Shown one piece after another: positions 14,657-30,115 of a stretch of 64,000 nucleotides of DNA. The stretch's first letter is position 1; each line of letters starts with the position of its first letter. The stretch lies in NCBI GenBank assembly GCA_009909085.1, contig JAAANX010000086.1:1-64000 (forward strand), in the 5' to 3' direction. The translations under genes were made by a program, and so were the position numbers. The notes below the pieces were generated by a model. It searched no databases. It was given only the letters and a program-made list of their open reading frames with translations, and had not been told where the DNA came from. This DNA comes from Cyanobacteria bacterium GSL.Bin1. Its GTDB lineage: Bacteria; Cyanobacteriota; Cyanobacteriia; Cyanobacteriales; Rubidibacteraceae.

Positions 14657-14713
14657 TTCTGATACATTTCTTAAAATAAAAGGAGGTACCACTTATATTC
14701 AAGCATTGGTGTA

Positions 14714-15151
14714 ATGTCTCAAGGTCAACCGACTCAATGGAAAATTAAACTGCTTTATGATGGCGAATGCCCTTTGTGTCTGCGTGAAGTCAATTTTTTG
14801 CAGAAGCGAGATGGCGGTCGCGGTTTAGTAAAATTTGTTGATATTGCTGATGAGAACTATCAACCGGAAGAGAATGGCGGGGTTGATTTTGAAACGGCAA
14901 TGGGACGAATTCACGGCGTTCTCCCCGATGGAACCGTTGTTAAGGATATTGAAGTATTTCGTCGGGTGTATGAAGCTTTAGGAATGGGTTGGGTTTACGC
15001 TGTCACTAAATTACCGATTCTTGGCGCGATCGCGGATTGGATTTATGGTCTGTGGGCAGATCGCCGTTTAGCCCTGACCGGACGACCCGATCTTCAAACC
15101 ATTGTCGCTGAAAAACAACAACGTTGTTCCCAAGACAGTTGTCGTCTTTAA
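14714..15151 (+). CDS. DCC-family (DUF393) thiol-disulfide oxidoreductase-like protein
   Basis: Encodes 145 residues. The family hallmark is near the N-terminus: YDGECPLCLREVNFLQKRD with Cys19 and Cys22 as the CxxC pair. The fold is thioredoxin-like and there is no signal peptide, so a cytosolic redox role is inferred. A good AAAGGAGG sits about 27 bases before this ATG, unusually far, but no in-frame start lies closer. The C-terminus contains two more cysteines (RCSQDSC), which could be redox-active or bind metal. Substrates are unknown for most family members. Confidence 0.82.
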   Translation: MSQGQPTQWKIKLLYDGECPLCLREVNFLQKRDGGRGLVKFVDIADENYQPEENGGVDFETAMGRIHGVLPDGTVVKDIEVFRRVYEALGMGWVYAVTKLPILGAIADWIYGLWADRRLALTGRPDLQTIVAEKQQRCSQDSCRL

Positions 15152-21243: not shown

Positions 21244-22542
21244 ATGTTTGCAAGCACAAAGAAAACTTTATTCCGATTCAAAAACAAACTGTCTAACCGC
21301 TTTCTCCAAAATTTGGCGTGGTTAGGGGGGTCGCAAATGCTTAACCGTGTAGTTCGATTGGGAACTACAGCGACGATCGCGCGGTTGCTCTCTCCCACTG
21401 ATTATGGGCTGGCTGCGGTTGTTCTCACTGCTCATGAGTTTATCAATGTTTTTACTCGCGGTGGTATTGTCACAAAGCTGATTCAAGCCCCCGAATCGGA
21501 ATTAGAAGCCTGTAATGAGACTGCCTATTGGTTAAATTGGATTCTCTGCGGGTCACTCTTTGTGCTGCAATGTATTGTTGCTTTTCCTGTGAGTGAGTTT
21601 TATGGCAACAGCGCAATCGCGCTCCCTTTAATTGTGATGGCGTTCATTTACCTGATGCTGCCCTTTGCCTGTGTTCAAGCTGCCCTCAATATTCGAGAAA
21701 ACCGCTTGCGAGTGGCAGCAACCGCCGATTCCTTGCAGTTTATCAGTGATTGTGCGTTAACCGTCATCTTTGCCCTTCTTGGGTTTGGCGCTTGGGCGAT
21801 TGTCCTCCCGAAAGTTTTAGTCGCGCCGATTTGGGTGGTGATTAATCGGGAAAATCATAGTTGGCGACCTTCAGGGAAATTTACCCTGACTAAAACAAGA
21901 GAGATCATGCAGTTCGGTCGTCATATTCTGGGTGTGGAATTACTCTCCACGGCTCGTAATCATGCGGATTATCTGCTGATTGGTCGGTTTTTGGGCTTAG
22001 AAGCCTTAGGAATTTATTATTTCGCCTTTAATGCGGGTTTAGGCATTAGCTTGAGCTTAATCGGTGCCTTTAATTCTGCTCTTTTCCCCTGGCTTTGTGC
22101 GGTAAATCAGGATTTAGAGAAACTCGAAAAACGCTTTTTGCAGGGCTTAAAAACTCTATCCCTCATTGCAGTTCCCATTATTTTATTACAGTGTGTCTCT
22201 GCTCCCTTTTATGTTCCCCTTGTCTTTGGAGAAAAGTGGATCGCAGTCGGTGCCTTACCTGTCCTCATTATTATTTGTCTTTCTGCACTCCCACGACCTT
22301 TTGCAGAAGCTGCTTCTCAACTCACTCGCGCTTTAGATCAGCCCCGTTTTGATTCTCAGTGGAACATTATCTTCACAGGGATTTTATTAATGGCGCTGTT
22401 GATTGGGGTGCAGAGTGGGCTTTTAGGGGTCGCGATCGCGCTTTTAATCGCCCATTTAATCGCAATGCCGATGTTTACCCTCTGGACAACTCGTCATCTC
22501 CGTCGCACCAGACTCGCTTCCAAACTACTCTCTGCTCTCTAA
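21244..22542 (+). CDS. Polysaccharide flippase (Wzx/MATE-like)
   Basis: Encodes 432 residues with about twelve hydrophobic helices after a basic N-terminus. The first-helix region (LAWLGGSQMLNRVVRLGTTA) and RLLSPTDYGLAAVVLTAHEF are typical of oligosaccharide flippases of the polysaccharide synthesis family. Such proteins move lipid-linked sugar repeat units from the cytoplasmic to the outer face of the inner membrane. It is the first gene of a cluster with glycosyltransferases and a sugar-phosphate transferase, which supports a role in exopolysaccharide, capsule or O-antigen export. The GT2 gene starts 31 bp downstream. Confidence 0.9.
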   Translation: MFASTKKTLFRFKNKLSNRFLQNLAWLGGSQMLNRVVRLGTTATIARLLSPTDYGLAAVVLTAHEFINVFTRGGIVTKLIQAPESELEACNETAYWLNWILCGSLFVLQCIVAFPVSEFYGNSAIALPLIVMAFIYLMLPFACVQAALNIRENRLRVAATADSLQFISDCALTVIFALLGFGAWAIVLPKVLVAPIWVVINRENHSWRPSGKFTLTKTREIMQFGRHILGVELLSTARNHADYLLIGRFLGLEALGIYYFAFNAGLGISLSLIGAFNSALFPWLCAVNQDLEKLEKRFLQGLKTLSLIAVPIILLQCVSAPFYVPLVFGEKWIAVGALPVLIIICLSALPRPFAEAASQLTRALDQPRFDSQWNIIFTGILLMALLIGVQSGLLGVAIALLIAHLIAMPMFTLWTTRHLRRTRLASKLLSAL

Positions 22543-22573: not shown

Positions 22574-23584
22574 ATGACTAAAATCTCTGTTATTCTTCCG
22601 GTTTACAATGTTGAACACTATATTGCTCAAGCCGTTCAATCTGTTCTCAATCAGACTTACAAAAACTTTGAATTACTCATTATTGATGATGAATCGCCCG
22701 ATCGCAGCATTGAAATTTGTCGCACCTTCCAAGATCCCCGCATCAAAATTATCCATCAAAAAAACCGTGGTTTAGCGGGAGCCAGAAATACTGGAATCCG
22801 CCATGCAACCGGAGATTATTTAGCTTTCTTAGATTCTGATGATGCTTGGTTACCTGAAAAACTGGAAAAACATCTTGCTCATCTCGAAGCGAATCCTCAA
22901 GTTGGGGTCAGTTTTAGTCGCTCTGGGTTTATGGATGAAACAGGACAACCCACAGGCTATTATCAAATGCCAAAACTAACGGGAATCACCCCTGAATATT
23001 TACTTTGTCGTAATCCCATTGGCAATGGTTCCGCGCCGGTAATTCGTCGGGAAGTCATGTCAGAGATTAGTTTTTCCGATGCGGAAGAAGTGCATTATTT
23101 CGATGAAACCTTTCGTCAATCAGAAGATATTGAATGCTGGCTGCGGATTGCCATTTTGACGGACTGGGAAATTGAGGGTTTACCGGAAGCCCTGACGCTT
23201 TATCGGGTGAATGCAGGGGGGCTTTCTGCTAGCATCTTCAAACAACTTGCATCTTGGGAAAATGTGATCGCTAAAACCCGCACTTATGCCCCAGACTTAC
23301 TTGCAACTTGGGAAAATATGGCTCGCGCGTATCAACTGCGTTATTTAGCCCGGCGGGCGGTACGTCTTCAAGACGGAAAACTGGCGGTTGAGTTTGTGTA
23401 TCGCGCCCTGAGAACCCATTGGCAAATTATTTTACTGGAACCGAATCGGACCATCTTGACACTGATAGCAGCTTATTGTCTGTGGTTACTCCCGCAAAAC
23501 TGGTATCGAAACCTAGAAGCAAGCGCGATCGCGCTAACGGGAACGATGCAACAGCAACGGATCTCTCAGGAAGCAGCCCAGTAA
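22574..23584 (+). CDS. Family 2 glycosyltransferase
   Basis: Encodes 336 residues. The GT-A fold starts immediately (ISVILPVYNVEHYIAQAVQS, then LIIDDESPDRS) and has the nucleotide-sugar/metal motif DSDDAW near residue 94. EDIECWLR around residue 190 is the usual acceptor-side acidic motif. A C-terminal amphipathic to hydrophobic region (about 285-320) may associate with the membrane. It adds one sugar during assembly of the cluster's polysaccharide; donor and linkage are unknown. It is probably cotranscribed with the upstream flippase and is followed by a strong terminator. Confidence 0.92.
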   Translation: MTKISVILPVYNVEHYIAQAVQSVLNQTYKNFELLIIDDESPDRSIEICRTFQDPRIKIIHQKNRGLAGARNTGIRHATGDYLAFLDSDDAWLPEKLEKHLAHLEANPQVGVSFSRSGFMDETGQPTGYYQMPKLTGITPEYLLCRNPIGNGSAPVIRREVMSEISFSDAEEVHYFDETFRQSEDIECWLRIAILTDWEIEGLPEALTLYRVNAGGLSASIFKQLASWENVIAKTRTYAPDLLATWENMARAYQLRYLARRAVRLQDGKLAVEFVYRALRTHWQIILLEPNRTILTLIAAYCLWLLPQNWYRNLEASAIALTGTMQQQRISQEAAQ

Positions 23585-23774: not shown

Positions 23775-24218
23775 ATGAAAGTTTTACTAGTTTGTTCCAC
23801 TGGCGGTCATTTCGAGACCTTAAATGATTTATCCCCCTTCTGGCAACAGCGCGATCGCTGCTGGGTTACTTTCTCTTCTCGTAGCACTGAGACGGCTTTA
23901 GCAACAGAGAGAGTTTACCATGCTTACAGTCCCACCAATCGCAACTTAATCAACCTCGTCCGTAACTTTGGGTTAGCGTGGCGCATATTATCTCAAGAAC
24001 GCCCAAAACTGGTTCTTTCTTCTGGTGCGGGGGTGGCAGTTCCCTTCTTAATCTTGGCAAAACTCTGGGGTTGTCAAACGGCTTTTGTGGAAGCCATTAC
24101 CCGAGTGGAACAACTGAGTTTATCAGCGCGATTAACCCTTCCCTTCATTGATGCGCTGTATGTTCGTTGGCCCCAACTGCAAAACCGTTATCCGAAAGCA
24201 ATGCTGATTACTGTTTAA
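23775..24218 (+). CDS. Alg14/PssD-like glycosyltransferase subunit
   Basis: Encodes 147 residues. The N-terminus MKVLLVCSTGGHFETLNDLS is the typical Alg14 glycine motif, and LVLSSGAGVAVPFLILAKLW is the membrane-associating helix found in this family. In eukaryotes Alg14 anchors the catalytic Alg13. In bacteria paired proteins (PssD/PssE type) add a sugar to a lipid-linked acceptor. The next gene, 3 bp to 21 bp away depending on start, encodes the Alg13-like half, so the two should form one heteromeric enzyme. It lies after a terminator and has its own promoter region. Confidence 0.88.
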   Translation: MKVLLVCSTGGHFETLNDLSPFWQQRDRCWVTFSSRSTETALATERVYHAYSPTNRNLINLVRNFGLAWRILSQERPKLVLSSGAGVAVPFLILAKLWGCQTAFVEAITRVEQLSLSARLTLPFIDALYVRWPQLQNRYPKAMLITV

Positions 24219-24239
24219 TGATTGGAGAGATTGAAAACA

Positions 24240-24764
24240 ATGCTTTTTATTACTGTTGGTACTGAAAAATTTCCTTTTGATCGCCTCGCTCGTTGGATTA
24301 ACTGTTTAATGACAGAAGGCTTTATTGATGAACCCGTTATTTTTCAATCAGGGAGTTGTCTCTATCAACCCACTGGTGTAGAAGTCAAGCCACTGCTTCG
24401 GGAAACTGACTTTCGCAACTATTTGCAAGAAGCCCGTTTAGTGATTACCCATTGCGGAGATGGGACTCTCAGACAGCTCGATCGCGCTACAACCCCGTAC
24501 ATTTTAGTCCCTCGCACTGTCCACTTTGAAGAGCACGTTGATGATCACCAAGTCGAATTAGCCCAAGCCTTAGAATTACTCGGTGTTCCCGTGGCTTGGT
24601 CACTAGGAGATTTAGTCCGCTTTATTGCTTCCCCCTGCTGTGTTACGCAGCGCATCTTCTCTCACGCTCCGATTAACCAACTTTGCCACGATTTAGAACA
24701 GCACGTTACTCGCGAGTCACTGGCTGGAGAATTAGCCCTTTCTGCACTGACCAGTTATCAGTGA
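24240..24764 (+). CDS. Alg13/PssE-like glycosyltransferase catalytic subunit
   Basis: Encodes 174 residues from the ATG at 24240; GGAGA about 12 bases upstream supports this start over a TTG at 24222. The protein matches the C-terminal nucleotide-binding half of GT28 enzymes: MLFITVGTEKFPFDRLARWI, then ITHCGDGTLRQLDRATTPYI, where the glycine-rich loop and following residues bind the UDP-sugar. VPRTVHFEEHVDDHQVELAQ is the usual end of this motif. It would be catalytic and act with the Alg14-like protein encoded just upstream. Confidence 0.88.
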   Translation: MLFITVGTEKFPFDRLARWINCLMTEGFIDEPVIFQSGSCLYQPTGVEVKPLLRETDFRNYLQEARLVITHCGDGTLRQLDRATTPYILVPRTVHFEEHVDDHQVELAQALELLGVPVAWSLGDLVRFIASPCCVTQRIFSHAPINQLCHDLEQHVTRESLAGELALSALTSYQ

Positions 24765-24828: not shown

Positions 24829-25821
24829 ATGATGACTCAAACAACTTTCAAACCTAATTTTACAATCACAATTCTCAATCGTTCCGCTTTAATTCAATTA
24901 CCCAAACATCTCGATCGCGCTTTCATTACAACCTTAAATCAGCAATTACAATCTGTTTTAGCAACCACAAATTCCCTACAATCATTAGTCTTTGACTTTG
25001 CGAATGTGACCTTTATTGATAGCCCAGCTATCGGCGGAATTCGACAGATTATTACTTTAGCGAAAAGCCAAGCAATTAATCTGAAATTTTGGAGTCTTTC
25101 TCCCGCTATTGAAACCGCAATGACAGCCACAGGGATTATTGACCCTGAGATTTGCCAACCCGAAACCAAAGGGATTCCTGTTCAAAATACTGCTAAGAAG
25201 GCGCTTGTTACCCATGCTTCTGTTAATTCTCCGCTGAAACGGATGGTCGATATTGCAGGTGCGCTGGTGGGTTTAAGTATTCTCAGTGTTTTATATTGTC
25301 CTCTCGTGATCGCGATTAAATTAGATAGTCCTGGTCCAGTTTTCTTCAGTCAAACTCGTCACGGTTTACGGGGAGAAAAGTTTCGTGTCTGGAAGTTTCG
25401 TTCTATGGTTTCTAATGCCGAACAACTGAAACATCAAGTCGAAAATGAAATTGAAGGGGCATTTTTCAAAAATAAAAACGATCCGCGCATTACTAGCGTT
25501 GGTGCATTTCTCAGACGCTCTAGTTTAGATGAATTTCCCCAGTTTTGGAATGTTTTGAAAGGAGAAATGAGTTTAGTGGGAACCCGTCCGCCGACTGTTG
25601 ATGAAGTAGAACAATATCAAGTTAATCACTGGCGCAGATTAGATGTCAAACCTGGAATTACCGGTGAATGGCAAGTGAATGGTCGCTCTGAAATTCTCGA
25701 TTTTGAAGACGTGGTTCGTCTCGATTTACACTATCAAGAAAAGTGGAGCATTTGGCATGATTTCAAACTAATTTTACAAACAGTAGGACGAGTGGTGAGT
25801 AAAAATAGTGGGGCGTGCTAG
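24829..25821 (+). CDS. STAS domain-polyprenyl-phosphate sugar transferase fusion
   Basis: Encodes 330 residues with two parts. Residues about 10-105 look like a STAS/anti-anti-sigma domain: VFDFANVTFIDSPAIGGIRQ places Asp64-Ser65 where such domains carry the phosphorylatable serine. Residues about 138-330 are a bacterial sugar transferase of the WcaJ/RfbP C-terminal type. It has the entry helix KRMVDIAGALVGLSILSVLY, then GPVFFSQTRHGLRGEKF, VWKFRSM, SLVGTRPPTVDE and VKPGITGEWQVNGRSE. This enzyme type starts repeat-unit synthesis by moving a sugar phosphate to undecaprenyl phosphate. The N-terminal membrane domain of WcaJ is replaced by STAS, suggesting regulation by phosphorylation or partner binding. 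Similar fusions occur in other cyanobacteria as I recall. Confidence 0.88.
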   Translation: MMTQTTFKPNFTITILNRSALIQLPKHLDRAFITTLNQQLQSVLATTNSLQSLVFDFANVTFIDSPAIGGIRQIITLAKSQAINLKFWSLSPAIETAMTATGIIDPEICQPETKGIPVQNTAKKALVTHASVNSPLKRMVDIAGALVGLSILSVLYCPLVIAIKLDSPGPVFFSQTRHGLRGEKFRVWKFRSMVSNAEQLKHQVENEIEGAFFKNKNDPRITSVGAFLRRSSLDEFPQFWNVLKGEMSLVGTRPPTVDEVEQYQVNHWRRLDVKPGITGEWQVNGRSEILDFEDVVRLDLHYQEKWSIWHDFKLILQTVGRVVSKNSGAC

Positions 25822-25858
25822 AACTATCTCGAAAACCACAATCAGAAAAAAACAGAGC

Positions 25859-25957
25859 ATGAAAACCGATGATATTTTCTATCAAATTTTTCAGCGATCG
25901 CCCTCTCTAGCGTTTGAATTAAAATTTAGTTGTATGTCCTTTGTCCTTCGTCCTTAG
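25859..25957 (+). pseudogene. Truncated start of a DUF2887/Rpn-type nuclease gene
   Basis: The 32-codon frame starts MKTDDIFYQIFQRSPSLAFE, the characteristic N-terminus of cyanobacterial DUF2887/Rpn-family proteins (putative PD-D/ExK nucleases, normally over 200 residues). After about 22 codons it runs into GTCCTTT-type heptamer repeats and stops, so the body of the gene is gone. It is a remnant; the deletion breakpoint coincides with repeat DNA. Confidence 0.65.
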
Positions 25958-25996
25958 TTTCTATAGCCAATGACTAATGACTAATGACTAATGACT
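25936..25996. repeat. Two short heptamer arrays
   Basis: GTCCTTT, GTCCTTC and GTCCTTA run in tandem at 25936-25956. After 12 bp, four AATGACT units follow at 25969-25996. AATGACT is the reverse complement of the AGTCATT unit at 10875 and 38569. Confidence 0.85.
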
Positions 25997-26219
25997 AAGA
26001 GTAATCCAAGAAAATGATCATCCAGTAGCTATAGGCTGCTTAGGGAAATTTCAAGACATTATGGATGGTTTATTTGTTGCAGCACTCTAAATGGTTGCTC
26101 TTTTTACGCCATCGGGTACTAGGAACCTCAGCAACAAAACTCACCAACTTCCCCAGAATATAGCCAAACTTAGCGTTTTCTTTGGTCAAGATTAGAAGAG
26201 GTTGTTATACTCATTTTGA
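25997..26219. other. Gene-free stretch with a start-less minus-strand frame
   Basis: Between the heptamer array and the ArsR gene I see no complete gene. On the minus strand a frame of about 43 codons ends at 26070 (it includes EVPSTRWRKKSNHLECCNK) but has no start codon with a ribosome-binding site. It may be a fragment of a lost gene. Confidence 0.35.
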
Positions 26220-26579
26220 TTAATTCCGAACCAGATTAAAGTTAGACAGTTGACTAAATGATTCGGCTCGTTCTTTAAATTCGTTGCTAATTGTGCCGCA
26301 AACTAATTCGCAGAGTTCAAAAATCATCGGATCTTTAATCCGATAGTAAGCACTAACGCCTTGTTGTTCTCGCTTGAGAATTCCCGCTTGCGTTAAGACT
26401 TTTAAATGTTTAGAAAGGTTGGCTTGTCCTAAACCGGTGGCTTCTGCCAGTTGTTTCCCATTCATGGGTTTTTCTCTTAAACAATTGAGGATGTGAAGGC
26501 GACTCACTTCTGATAACACCTTAAAGTAATCGGCAACTAAGCCAAGGGTTTCAGGAGAGGTTTGATCTAACTGGGGCAT
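26220..26579 (-). CDS. ArsR-family transcriptional regulator
   Basis: Encodes 119 residues with a winged helix-turn-helix: LSEVSRLHILNCLREKPMNG leads into the DNA-binding helix ATGLGQANLSKHLKVLTQAG, and ILKREQQGVSAYYRIKDP is the wing. The classic ELCVC(D) metal site of arsenic/cadmium sensors is absent. Cys33, Cys90 and Cys94 are present. Cysteines at roughly the first and last of these positions are redox switches in BigR/SqrR-type persulfide sensors, but the spacing differs and this is only a suggestion. The gene lies downstream of the DHH-CBS-polymerase gene on the same strand, about 180 bp away. Confidence 0.88.
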   Translation of the reverse strand: MPQLDQTSPETLGLVADYFKVLSEVSRLHILNCLREKPMNGKQLAEATGLGQANLSKHLKVLTQAGILKREQQGVSAYYRIKDPMIFELCELVCGTISNEFKERAESFSQLSNFNLVRN

Positions 26580-26758
26580 AACAGTAAAGTAATAATACTC
26601 AAAAAGGACTTAAATCTTAATATTAGTTTTATTGTATCTTAATTTTTTTAACTATGCAGTCATGTTGACATAAAGTATAGTGTAAAACATTTCTTACCCG
26701 TGTGATTGAAGCGGGGAAGCAAGCCGGCAATTGCCTCAACCTGATTACCCTAGAAGTA

Positions 26759-29599
26759 TCACGAGTCTTGCGGATAATGTTGGGCGAGATACTGCTGTGC
26801 TTCGGCTTTCGTTTGGATAACACCATCAAGGGTCGCGTTTAAAAGGCTTTCTAAAATTTCCCGATATTGGGGTCCTGGCTTGTAACCTAAGGCTTTAAGG
26901 TCATTGCCATCTAATGGTGCTTTCAGTTGTGACCAATCCGTGAGATATTGCCAGATTCGTCTTCTGACCTTACGAGAAGTTTGAACAGCAGTTAAGACCA
27001 GTGTCGGTAACTTATACTGATGTAATACTTTTACCAGGGTTTGGGGACGATATCCCTCTTGAAAAAGCGTATTTTTAATCGGAATTTCAAGCGTACTTAA
27101 AGGTTGCTGCAGTAGATTCGCACGTTGCTGTTGTAACGTTTTGTACAGAGGAAGCGCTTCTGCCGGTGAGATATCTTCCGATAAATGGGTGGTAATGTTT
27201 GCTTTTGCAGTTTCCAGTTCTTTGAGGCGCTTAATACTATCACTAGGGAGTTCAAGTTGTGTCGCAACGGAAACTCGTTCTTCTGTAGCGGGTAAATAAG
27301 CAAGAATCACTTCTAATCGCATTTGCCAATGCGTTAGTGTATGGTCTGGATCAAAGCGTTTTAAACACCGTCCCAAAAATTGCACTTGCCACCACAACTG
27401 TTCATCTAACTCTAACTGGGGATGTAGACAACGCAGGGCGGTTAAATCGGATAATAACTGCAGGGCCGGTCGCCAGTAAGGGGATTCTAGAATATATTTG
27501 AGTTCTGCTTTCAGGCGGGTTTGGAGGGCAGGGGCTTTGCCATTTTCGGTCCGAGAGCGATCATACGCCCCACTGGCGATCGCGTAACGAATATATTGTT
27601 CGGTTTGCGGTTCAATTTCAAAGCCCAGACGCACCGCAAACTTGACAGCACGATAAATCCGAGTCGGATCTTCAATAAAGCTATTGGCGTGGAGAACCCG
27701 GACTAAGCGCGATCGCAGATCAATCAAGCCGCCAAAGAAGTCCAACAGTTCCCCACTTTTCGGTGGCGTTAACCGAATCGCTAAGGCATTAATGGTAAAA
27801 TCGCGGCGATATAAGTCTTGACGGATGGAACTGGCTTCAACTTCTGGATTCGCTGCCGGATAAGGATAAAATTCCGTTCTCGCCGTGGCAATATCCACCC
27901 ACAGGGAATCTAATTCAGGATGATTATGCCACAGTAACGCTGCGGTTTGAAACTCCCCATGCACTTCTAACCGAACAGGGGGATAATCATTTTGCAGCGC
28001 CTTGGCTAATTCCACACCTGCCCCCACATCCGCAGCGCGATGAAAGCCATCCACCACTAAATCTATATCTTGCAAAAATAGCGGGGCGTTCGATTCCGTC
28101 GTCTGAGGCGGACTCGCCAGGAGAATATCCCGCACTGCCCCACCAACAATATAAAGATGCCAACCGCGCTTTTCTGCTGCTTCCGCTGCATTAGAAAGCA
28201 AATTCCAGAGGGCGGGTTGCAGACGATGCTTGAAATTAGGGAGTAAACAAGCGGAAATTAAAGATTTCTGGTCTTGATCGGAGTTATCAATCCCCCGTTC
28301 TTGATGGAGTTGCCGCAGGACATCGGTGCGGGTGACAATCCCGAGGAGTTGATTGTCTTTTAAAACCGGCAATCGTCCCACATCATAGGTGACCATGAGG
28401 TCTTCAATGTCTGGTAGCAGCGTATCCGGCGCGATCGTTTTCAGGTTACGAGTCATATAGCCGGTGACCGGGGCATGACCAAACCCATGATGGAGGGCAA
28501 GATCAAGATCGCGACGGGAAATAATACCGACCAATTGGTCCTTTTCATTCACTACCGATAACCCCGAATGTCCGTAACGAAGCAGAATGCGCTGGGCTTC
28601 AGCGATGGTGGTATTGGGGCGAATGGTACGCACCGGAGACGACATGAGTTCCTGGGCGGTGGGCGGATGCGGGATTTGCCCTTTGATCTGTGCAATCAGT
28701 TCCTGCAGCGTTGCTTCGGGATCAGCGGTTTTTAAGTTAGCAGAAGCCGCTTGACTATGCCCGCCGCCGCCAAATGGGGCGAGAATTTGATTTAAATTCA
28801 CTTTCGGGAGGCGCGATCGCGCAATTAAACTTCCTCGCGGTTCATTCCCATGAGCATAAGCGTGTAGCAGTAACAAGGCATCGGCTTCAATCACATCAAT
28901 TAGTCGTTCTGCGACGCTGGATAATCCCGGAACAAACTGCTCACTTTCGAGATGTACCCAAGCTAAGGTATAGCCTTGCACGGTTTCCATTTGCACCTGG
29001 TCTAAGGCTTCCGATAAAAACTGTTGCAACTGGGGGGAAAGACTCGGTTCCACATAATCGGCAATGACATTGATATTTGCCCCCACTGCCATTAACCAAG
29101 CCAAGGCTTCGGCATCACGGGGAGTCGTTTGGGGAAATGTAAGAGAACCCGTATCGCTATGAATTCCCAATGCCATCACGGTCGCTTCAATGGTAGTGAG
29201 GGATATACCCGCTTTTCTTAAGGCTTCGACAATCAGGGTTGTCGTTGCACCAACGTCATCAATGTGCGTCATCGTGGCAGGAATATCCCCTTGGAACGCA
29301 TGGTGATCATAGAGGATGACATTTTTCAGTTGCGGCAGATCGAACCAACTTTGGGCTTTGCCAACGCGATCGCGCTGCTGGGTATCCACCACAATTAATG
29401 TCTCAATTTCTTCCGGGTGAACACTACGTCGTTCGATAACTGCTAATTCATCCCGATGTAAGGCTAAAAAAGATTGGACTCCCGGATGCGCCCCACCCGT
29501 TAACACCAGTTTTGCCCCCGCATAAAGACGAGTCAATCCCACCGCTGCGCCAAGAGCGTCAAAATCAGCAGTTTGGTGGCATAAAATTAAAGTAAGCAT
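26759..29599 (-). CDS. DHH-CBS-poly(A) polymerase/tRNA nucleotidyltransferase fusion
   Basis: Encodes 946 residues with three modules. Residues about 1-305 are a DHH/DHHA1 phosphoesterase: TADFDALGAAVGLTRLY, VVDTQQRDR, LYDHHAFQGD, HSDTGSLTFP and FGGGGHSQAA supply the metal ligands. About 312-430 are two CBS domains (MSSPVRTIRPNTTIAEAQRI, MTRNLKTIAPDTLLPDIEDL), which usually bind adenine nucleotides. About 470-940 are a class II tRNA nucleotidyltransferase/poly(A) polymerase with YIVGGAVRDILL, DIDLVVDG, RRDFTINALAIRL and DPTRIYRAVKFAVRLGFEI. Cyanobacteria are known to encode this fusion; it probably matures tRNA 3' ends (CCA or A addition), while the DHH part may hydrolyse short oligonucleotides or a cyclic dinucleotide. 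Confidence 0.9.
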   Translation of the reverse strand: MLTLILCHQTADFDALGAAVGLTRLYAGAKLVLTGGAHPGVQSFLALHRDELAVIERRSVHPEEIETLIVVDTQQRDRVGKAQSWFDLPQLKNVILYDHHAFQGDIPATMTHIDDVGATTTLIVEALRKAGISLTTIEATVMALGIHSDTGSLTFPQTTPRDAEALAWLMAVGANINVIADYVEPSLSPQLQQFLSEALDQVQMETVQGYTLAWVHLESEQFVPGLSSVAERLIDVIEADALLLLHAYAHGNEPRGSLIARSRLPKVNLNQILAPFGGGGHSQAASANLKTADPEATLQELIAQIKGQIPHPPTAQELMSSPVRTIRPNTTIAEAQRILLRYGHSGLSVVNEKDQLVGIISRRDLDLALHHGFGHAPVTGYMTRNLKTIAPDTLLPDIEDLMVTYDVGRLPVLKDNQLLGIVTRTDVLRQLHQERGIDNSDQDQKSLISACLLPNFKHRLQPALWNLLSNAAEAAEKRGWHLYIVGGAVRDILLASPPQTTESNAPLFLQDIDLVVDGFHRAADVGAGVELAKALQNDYPPVRLEVHGEFQTAALLWHNHPELDSLWVDIATARTEFYPYPAANPEVEASSIRQDLYRRDFTINALAIRLTPPKSGELLDFFGGLIDLRSRLVRVLHANSFIEDPTRIYRAVKFAVRLGFEIEPQTEQYIRYAIASGAYDRSRTENGKAPALQTRLKAELKYILESPYWRPALQLLSDLTALRCLHPQLELDEQLWWQVQFLGRCLKRFDPDHTLTHWQMRLEVILAYLPATEERVSVATQLELPSDSIKRLKELETAKANITTHLSEDISPAEALPLYKTLQQQRANLLQQPLSTLEIPIKNTLFQEGYRPQTLVKVLHQYKLPTLVLTAVQTSRKVRRRIWQYLTDWSQLKAPLDGNDLKALGYKPGPQYREILESLLNATLDGVIQTKAEAQQYLAQHYPQDS

Positions 29600-29717
29600 G
29601 AATGAATTAAGAGTTCCGCAAGGGATATATTTAGTGTAAACAGTTTCTCTTCTCTATTCAGTTAACAAAACCGAGTCTCAAAATTAAAAATGTACCCAAT
29701 TTTAATTTTCTTGGATT

Positions 29718-29984
29718 TTGAGCAACCAAATTGGATTGGCTTACTATTATTTAATTGGTGAGGGAGAACGTCCATCAAAAACTCAATATTGCACCTGGTA
29801 TTTTGGAGAAGATATTGAGGTTAATCTTCAATCTTTATCGAAGTTGATGAAAATAGCTAACAGAATTAGCTTGTGCTACTCAGAAATATCAGAGGAGCAT
29901 GAGAAGCCAAGCCAAATCTTCTCCAACCGAATTAAAGCCCAAAGTTTCCTTAACCGTTGGGTCAAATGGGTGGATTCCAGATAG
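29718..29984 (+). CDS. Doubtful small hypothetical protein
   Basis: An 88-codon frame starting at TTG, with no ribosome-binding site and no ATG near its beginning. The product would be rich in aromatic residues (GLAYYYLIGEGERPSKTQYC), resembles nothing I recognise, and ends in KWVDSR. AT-rich composition and the missing start suggest a decayed or truncated gene as readily as a real one. G-rich repeats follow it immediately. Confidence 0.3.
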   Translation: MSNQIGLAYYYLIGEGERPSKTQYCTWYFGEDIEVNLQSLSKLMKIANRISLCYSEISEEHEKPSQIFSNRIKAQSFLNRWVKWVDSR

Positions 29985-29997
29985 CCGGTTTGGATTG

Positions 29998-30115
29998 AGA
30001 CGGGGTTAGGTTTTCGGGATTCGGGGATAGGGGTCAAGAAGGTTTTAGGGGATAGGGAATCGGGGTTAGGGATTCAGTAACTCCAAGGATCCCTAACACC
30101 CAACCCCCTTCCCCA
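29998..30115. repeat. G-rich degenerate repeat region
   Basis: Several related G-rich words recur (GGGGTTAGG, GGGGATAGGGG, GGGGATAGGGA, GGGGTTAGGG), followed by a C-rich stretch (CCCTAACACCCAACCCCC) that is complementary to them. The two halves could fold into a large imperfect hairpin around 30060-30118. It sits between a doubtful gene and the 3' end of the ferredoxin gene. Confidence 0.55.

Follow-up and report, generated by a model that had tools for sequence, protein, structure and literature searches.

STAS-phosphoglycosyl transferase fusions of cyanobacteria and erosion of the STAS domain in the XssP clade

The window, a stretch of 64,000 nucleotides from the genome of Cyanobacteria bacterium GSL.Bin1 (termed G000; G-codes denote genomes and L-codes denote loci), encodes a protein that joins a STAS domain to a phosphoglycosyl transferase. 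It belongs to a family with an invariant serine at the phosphosite, in which many members lie beside the gene of a small RsbW-like kinase. Within this family it falls in one clade with XssP of Synechocystis sp. PCC 6803, where the STAS domain is eroded and the catalytic half is not. We consider it fairly probable that the window protein is the initiating transferase of a Wzx-type exopolysaccharide cluster with the STAS domain as a regulatory handle, that the family is switched by the kinase, and that the clade of the window protein has probably escaped this switch.

Domain organization, fold and gene neighborhood of the fusion protein

The first-pass annotation had read this open reading frame as a STAS-transferase fusion with Asp64-Ser65 at the phosphosite, and on this reading Pfam, the predicted fold and the alignments with TM1442 and SpoIIAA agree (Table 1). 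Pfam assigns the N-terminal part to STAS (PF01740; 36.7 bits against a cut-off of 22.6, E-value 3.8e-9) and the C-terminal part to Bac_transf (PF02397; 224.7 bits, E-value 7.7e-67), in which Asp234-Glu235 is presumably the catalytic Asp-Glu dyad, its role being taken from PglC. The long helix in front of the catalytic core is, as we assume after PglC, the putative membrane-embedded helix of monotopic enzymes; small monotopic enzymes likewise have a long helix just ahead of the catalytic core. The long WcaJ/WbaP-type model TIGR03023 reached 244.9 bits, below its cut-off of 410.75, and was matched at profile positions 257-449 of 453, so that, judged by its sequence, the window protein appears to fall short of the full-length long-type architecture with its N-terminal membrane region. 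The earlier proposal that the STAS domain replaces the membrane region thus applies to the N-terminal portion found in long WcaJ/WbaP-type enzymes, and fails for the helix before the core, which remains.

Table 1. Features of the fusion gene and of its cluster in the window (nucleotide positions refer to the window, residue numbers to the fusion protein)
Feature	Position	Strand	Basis
STAS-phosphoglycosyl transferase fusion, XssP clade	24829..25821	+	ORF, 330 aa; Pfam; tree
STAS domain, residues 20-105	24886..25143	+	Pfam PF01740; same span in whole-genome search; fold
Asp64-Ser65, SpoIIAA phosphoserine position	25018..25023	+	Alignments with TM1442 and, via L041, with SpoIIAA
Pro66-Ala67, eroded switch motif	25024..25029	+	Ser in 60/61 fusions, Gly in 59/61
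Linker, residues 106-134	25144..25230	+	His129 and Ser134 invariant, 61/61 each
Long helix preceding catalytic core, residues 135-166	25231..25326	+	AlphaFold2 model
Bac_transf catalytic domain, residues 137-323	25237..25797	+	Pfam; PglC and WbaP folds
Asp234-Glu235, putative catalytic dyad	25528..25533	+	Invariant in 32 aligned fusions
PssE/Alg13-like glycosyltransferase half	24222..24764	+	Pfam PF04101, 44.5 bits; NCBIfam PssE, 79.6, cut-off of 120 not reached
PssD/Alg14-like glycosyltransferase half	23775..24218	+	Pfam PF08660, 55.9 bits; NCBIfam PssD, 108.1, just under cut-off of 110
Family 2 glycosyltransferase, same cluster	22574..23584	+	Pfam PF00535, 150.9 bits
Wzx-like flippase, same cluster	21244..22542	+	Pfam PF13440, 185.6 bits

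An AlphaFold2 model of the window protein, built from an alignment of 32 fusions, has a mean pLDDT of 80.5 and a pTM of 0.63, with low pLDDT at residues 118-126. With Foldseek and VIA-align, RsbS, SpoIIAA, TM1442 and RsbV were matched by the N-terminal part of the model, and PglC and WbaP by the C-terminal part. The comparison of the predicted structure with STAS folds, which had been suggested as a check, returned the expected fold: residues 8-114 superimpose onto SpoIIAA (PDB 1thn_B) with a Z-score of 14.5 and an rmsd of 2.3 over 106 residues, and the STAS half matches RsbS (6jhk_A) with a Z-score of 14.1. The second half gave Z-scores of 17.8 with PglC (8e37_A) and 18.6 with WbaP (8t53_A). 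A profile of 24 relatives covering STAS domain, linker and helix, searched against solved structures, matched TM1442 (7.2e-17) and SpoIIAA (3.4e-14), and the best matches of the family STAS-end profile are anti-sigma antagonists; the STAS end of the window protein alone found TM1442 as its sole match (5.2e-4).

These alignments place the Asp-Ser pair of TM1442 on Asp64-Ser65, and the D-S-S-G of a typical relative (L041) on the D-S-S-G of SpoIIAA. In the SpoIIAA chain 1tid_B, aligned via L041, the serine equivalent to Ser65 is an alanine. The motif of the window protein, DSPAIGG, reads D-S-P-A instead of the family D-S-S-G.

The flippase, family 2 glycosyltransferase (GT2), PssD and PssE genes precede the fusion on its own strand, and an ArsR-type regulator lies downstream on the opposite strand. 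By its gene content the cluster resembles one for exopolysaccharide synthesis, with the fusion as the enzyme that would make the first lipid-linked sugar. Elsewhere in the family, one ORF of 473 residues (L039:8635-10056) combines a PssE-like half, a STAS domain and the transferase, with the adjacent kinase on the other strand. The order PssD, PssE, STAS, transferase and kinase recurs at L221:5358-7783, in a genome of family code f25; the motif there is DSSG, but the assembly puts STAS and transferase in different reading frames. At 99 of 140 loci, a member of a further gene family precedes the fusion on the same strand at a distance of no more than four ORFs (e.g. L042:6583-7227, the one member scanned, a DUF3318 protein).

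Conservation of the fusion family and its partner genes

With the complete protein as query, a search of 244 genomes from the phylum yielded at least 68 full or near-full fusion rows in at least 60 genomes, a count from which strongly diverged fusions may be missing. In total, 61 fusion loci were analysed with their flanks, the window included; those of G093, G111, G125, G153, G155 and G235 and a second row of G143, interrupted by an internal TGA, were left out, and by coordinates a kinase lies beside two of these seven (G111 and G235). Beyond cyanobacteria the search covered plasmids, where coverage of the whole protein reached 80% in 19 of the 1036 records matched (the best 25 of the 1036 being listed), and with the STAS end, linker and helix as query it did so in 5 of 33, all of them from Synechocystis. 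Among the 61 fusions, Asp64 and Ser65 are each present in 61, Ser66 in 60 and Gly67 in 59; the window protein is the exception at position 66, with proline, and has alanine at position 67. The loss of Ser65 across orthologues, which the first-pass annotation had named as evidence against itself, was therefore not seen. Ser65 is likewise kept in 136 of 136 distinct proteins, a set that includes 80 named loci found partly by the DSSG pattern, which biases the motif counts. A full-length fusion is present in 79 of these 80, and the 61 analysed and 79 named loci together formed the 140 loci used for neighbor clustering.

Clustering of the neighbors revealed one family of about 150 residues with 44 genes in 43 of the 140 loci. 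Of these genes, 37 lie directly downstream of the fusion on the same strand, five are second, and two are elsewhere or on the opposite strand; when each ORF is begun at its first possible start codon, 16 of the 44 share nucleotides with the end of the fusion gene. All 22 members scanned belong to HATPase_c_2, and the family profile, searched against solved structures, best matched RsbW (6m36_A, 5.2e-12), followed by SpoIIAB. The Glu and Asn of the N-box are conserved in all 44 kinases, and the G2 box reads [RKQ]-G-[LW] in 39. The other five (L035, L038, L039, L041 and L065) have W-G-[CF], and since W-G-C or W-G-F stands there instead of R-G-L, these kinases may differ in activity. Their fusions, together with that of L034, make up a six-row branch beside the clade of the window protein in the first tree.

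A kinase gene of this type lies within four ORFs of the fusion at 26 of the 61 analysed loci, and is the immediate neighbor at 22. As controls, 40 loci around non-fusion phosphoglycosyl transferases of fusion-bearing genomes were inspected, and neither the kinase, searched with profiles made from the adjacent kinases, nor a free STAS protein was found at any of them. The difference for the kinase has a Fisher p of 2e-7, a statistic that ignores relatedness. In a tree of the catalytic columns, kinase adjacency is widely scattered and requires at least seven changes; with about seven changes, the 26 loci do not count as 26 independent cases. HATPase_c_2 was not among the 25 listed Pfam families of 75 control neighbors (110-240 residues, within four ORFs), and since each of the 43 unlisted families has at most one member, it occurs in at most one of these 75. 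No such kinase lies near 35 of the 61 fusions; these include all 26 rows of one large clade, which by its named relatives would be the Nostocales, as well as the clade of the window protein.

Free STAS proteins are found near 9 of the 61 fusions, and SpoIIE phosphatases, in two neighbor clusters, near six. As an indicator, the phosphatase counts for less than the kinase, because its profile, which includes the response-regulator part, also matches ORFs in three of the 40 controls (L183, L194 and L202). L035, L038 and L041 share the gene order of the window (flippase, GT2, PssD, PssE, fusion), but with two GT2 genes; there the fusion is followed by the kinase and a free STAS protein, and a response-regulator-SpoIIE phosphatase lies on the other strand (the L035 genes were checked by Pfam). 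At the level of the family, the expected co-occurrence with a switch kinase and a PP2C-type phosphatase was thus borne out, the kinase accompanying 26 of 61 fusions and none of 40 controls, and a phosphatase of the SpoIIE type being present at a few loci.

In view of these partner genes, we propose that in the family the small RsbW-like kinase would bind the STAS domain and phosphorylate Ser65, that a SpoIIE-type phosphatase would reverse its action, and that the free STAS protein present at some loci would compete for the same kinase. The bound kinase, or the phosphate on the STAS domain, would then set the initiation of polysaccharide synthesis; by analogy with SypA, the unphosphorylated STAS domain is the better guess for the active state.

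Two other roles of the STAS domain have to be weighed against this switch. It may be a structural or docking module, mediating dimerisation or docking to the membrane or to a glycosyltransferase, with no phospho-switch; the invariant serine could then be structural, as a helix cap. The STAS domains of SLC26 carriers are not known to act as partner switches, and the natural chain of L039, joining PssE, STAS and transferase, would fit such a module. The same holds for XssP, which functions in vivo (available text of PMC8205485) despite its eroded motif. However, a mere docking module leaves the kinase near 26 of 61 fusions and none of 40 controls unexplained, and the strict conservation of Asp64, Ser65 and the next two positions and the anti-sigma antagonists at the top of the STAS-end profile search also speak against it; we regard it as unlikely. 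Alternatively, signalling may run in reverse: the STAS domain of the enzyme would titrate the kinase, and a sigma factor or the output of the free STAS protein would then respond to how much enzyme is present or to its state. A canonical anti-sigma antagonist does work by titrating its kinase, and the free STAS proteins near nine fusions are compatible with this; yet no sigma factor was recognised in the nine neighbor clusters examined, a weak counter-argument as most neighbors are unannotated. We consider this direction quite improbable.

The kinase family also occurs apart from the fusions. A profile of 22 adjacent kinases (A3) matched 82 of the 244 genomes at E <=1e-20, comprising 56 of the 60 with a listed fusion and 26 of the 184 without one; its presence in the latter indicates that the kinase has other clients. 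As evidence, such genome-wide co-occurrence was set aside as not discriminating, since presence follows lineage. In five Nostocales-type genomes (L216-L220, e.g. L216:7641-8084), a kinase of the same family adjoins genes that, by their sequence starts, resemble petB and petD, which belong to the cytochrome b6f complex. Modules of an RsbW-like kinase and a response-regulator-SpoIIE phosphatase with no fusion close by are seen at L225:6074-8345, L222:6583-11383 and L227:7631-9401, the first two with a free STAS protein and the third with none found; perhaps these are Hmp-type switches.

Erosion of the STAS domain in the XssP clade

In the tree of catalytic columns, the window protein groups with L031, L033, L036 and XssP with a support of 100/98. 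All five retain Asp64-Ser65 within motifs that read DSPAIGG in the window protein, DSSGVVY in L031 and L036, DSSAIIY in L033 and DSAAIVY in XssP. Conservation was compared over 17 STAS and 107 catalytic columns chosen from 57 other sequences, a choice that lowers the score of the clade in both domains alike. The window protein keeps 5 of the 17 STAS columns, L031 and L036 keep 10 each, L033 keeps 8 and XssP 6, whereas the catalytic columns kept number 93, 96, 96, 90 and 94 of 107, respectively. The STAS domain of the clade is thus eroded and the catalytic half is not. This erosion is confined to one clade and is in effect one event. With 5 of 17 columns kept, the window copy was ruled out as a typical family member. 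In L031 and L036, a free STAS protein is encoded directly 3' of the fusion, and that of L031 (L031:9615-9941) has an intact D-S-T-G motif.

Of the neighbor families, neither the kinase nor the free STAS protein nor the phosphatase adjoins the window gene. A tblastn search with the 44 kinases detected no convincing decayed kinase downstream: the best hits, 0.005 at 14696-14854 and 0.007 at 23937-24182, are not downstream of the gene, and positions 25000-30000 gave nothing better than 0.19. The fusion-bearing genomes that lack the kinase family at 1e-20 are G000, G014, G076 and G093, all with eroded fusions; at an E-value of 1e-5, A3 found none in G000, G076 and G093 and one weak match in G014. 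The family is missing in four of the five genomes of the eroded clade tested. The fifth, G080, carries the eroded fusion L036, yet has the kinase beside a second fusion with a DSSG motif (L061).

The window protein could still be partner-switched by components encoded elsewhere, as G000 has all three on other contigs: an RsbW-like protein (L171:5131-5553), a SpoIIE phosphatase (L172) and a free STAS protein (L173). The retention of Asp64-Ser65 across the eroded clade points the same way. Against this, the L171 kinase scores 25 bits with the profile of adjacent kinases, these parts are unlinked to the window gene, and Pro66, Ala67 and ten more family-conserved STAS columns are changed in the window protein. 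In our judgement, a switch assembled from these parts is doubtful.

In the clade of the window protein and XssP, it appears instead that the STAS domain has drifted with no adjoining kinase while the enzyme stayed intact, and the enzyme is probably no longer under the switch. Most likely, the family enzyme is under direct partner-switch control, and the branch of the window protein has kept the enzyme while the switch decayed. Judging from its motifs and conserved columns, we read the window protein as a working initiating enzyme whose switch may have been lost or replaced. The partner-switch control of initiation that had been suggested for the window protein accordingly finds support for the family, through the kinase neighbors and the invariant Ser65, and none for the window protein itself, where kinase and phosphatase are missing from the flanks, Pro-Ala stands in place of Ser-Gly, and the conserved columns are depleted in the STAS domain as compared to the catalytic half.

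Relation to known switches and polysaccharide systems

The STAS-transferase fusion as such is not new, as the literature already presents all4160 of Anabaena sp. PCC 7120 as a glycosyltransferase carrying a STAS domain at its N-terminus (available text of PMC8256260). This gene is listed with those required for the heterocyst envelope polysaccharide, and with those lowered in sigC and sigE mutants (passages of PMC4390870); by inference, we would place it in the Nostocales-type branch with DSSG motifs. XssP has the same two domains as the window protein, with 70% identity in the catalytic part. It is the priming glycosyltransferase of synechan, and its deletion abolished bloom formation and suppressed EPS (available text of PMC8205485). 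The plasmid gene was identified as xssP by its location, next to the cluster's glycosyltransferase genes and to NACHT and two-component genes (same source). Unlike the window gene, xssP belongs to a sulfated-polysaccharide cluster under transcriptional control by XssS/R/Q, as far as described there. The word STAS is absent from the main text of PMC8205485 and of PMC13125312. A kinase gene adjoining the fusion, or a whole partner-switching module with it, was not seen described in those parts of the literature covered by our search.

Compared to the SpoIIAA and RsbV switches, the fusion family shares the STAS fold, the Asp-Ser phosphosite, an RsbW-like kinase and, at some loci, SpoIIE genes. 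They differ in that the STAS domain is part of an enzyme, whereas SpoIIAA and RsbV are free antagonists working with the SpoIIAB or RsbW kinase and the SpoIIE or RsbU phosphatase; moreover, the fusion family has no recognised sigma-factor output, and the module is absent around the window gene. Post-translational control of an initiating enzyme by a phosphorylated signalling protein is known from EpsW-EpsZ of Myxococcus xanthus (passages of PMC12802240). There, the regulator EpsW is a separate response-regulator protein and its target a large monotopic enzyme, whereas in the fusion the STAS domain belongs to the enzyme itself.

HmpU-V-W of Nostoc punctiforme and SypA-SypE of Vibrio fischeri are switches for hormogonium development or biofilm; what HmpV and SypA act on is given as unknown or undefined (passages of PMC6495340, PMC8256260, PMC10120452 and PMC4517449). 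Both are separate STAS proteins, and the available text of these papers shows no link to an initiating enzyme. SypA S57A, by its motif at the position of Pro66 in the window protein, restored biofilm poorly (passages of PMC10120452). Tentatively, and with more doubt than confidence, we suggest that kinase, phosphatase and free STAS protein compete over the STAS domain of the transferase, that the enzyme is an Hmp-type effector, and that the XssP lineage dropped this switch.

Overall, the family presents a candidate for the targets of HmpV and SypA, in which the initiating enzyme would be the direct output of a partner switch. As the kinase is often the next gene, the loci offer natural gene pairs, among them those with DSSG fusions in Planktothrix (L170), Oscillatoria (L155, which has a phosphatase as well) and Limnothrix (L164), while the eroded XssP branch supplies natural negative controls. 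How initiation is controlled is also relevant to the engineering of sulfated polysaccharides such as synechan.
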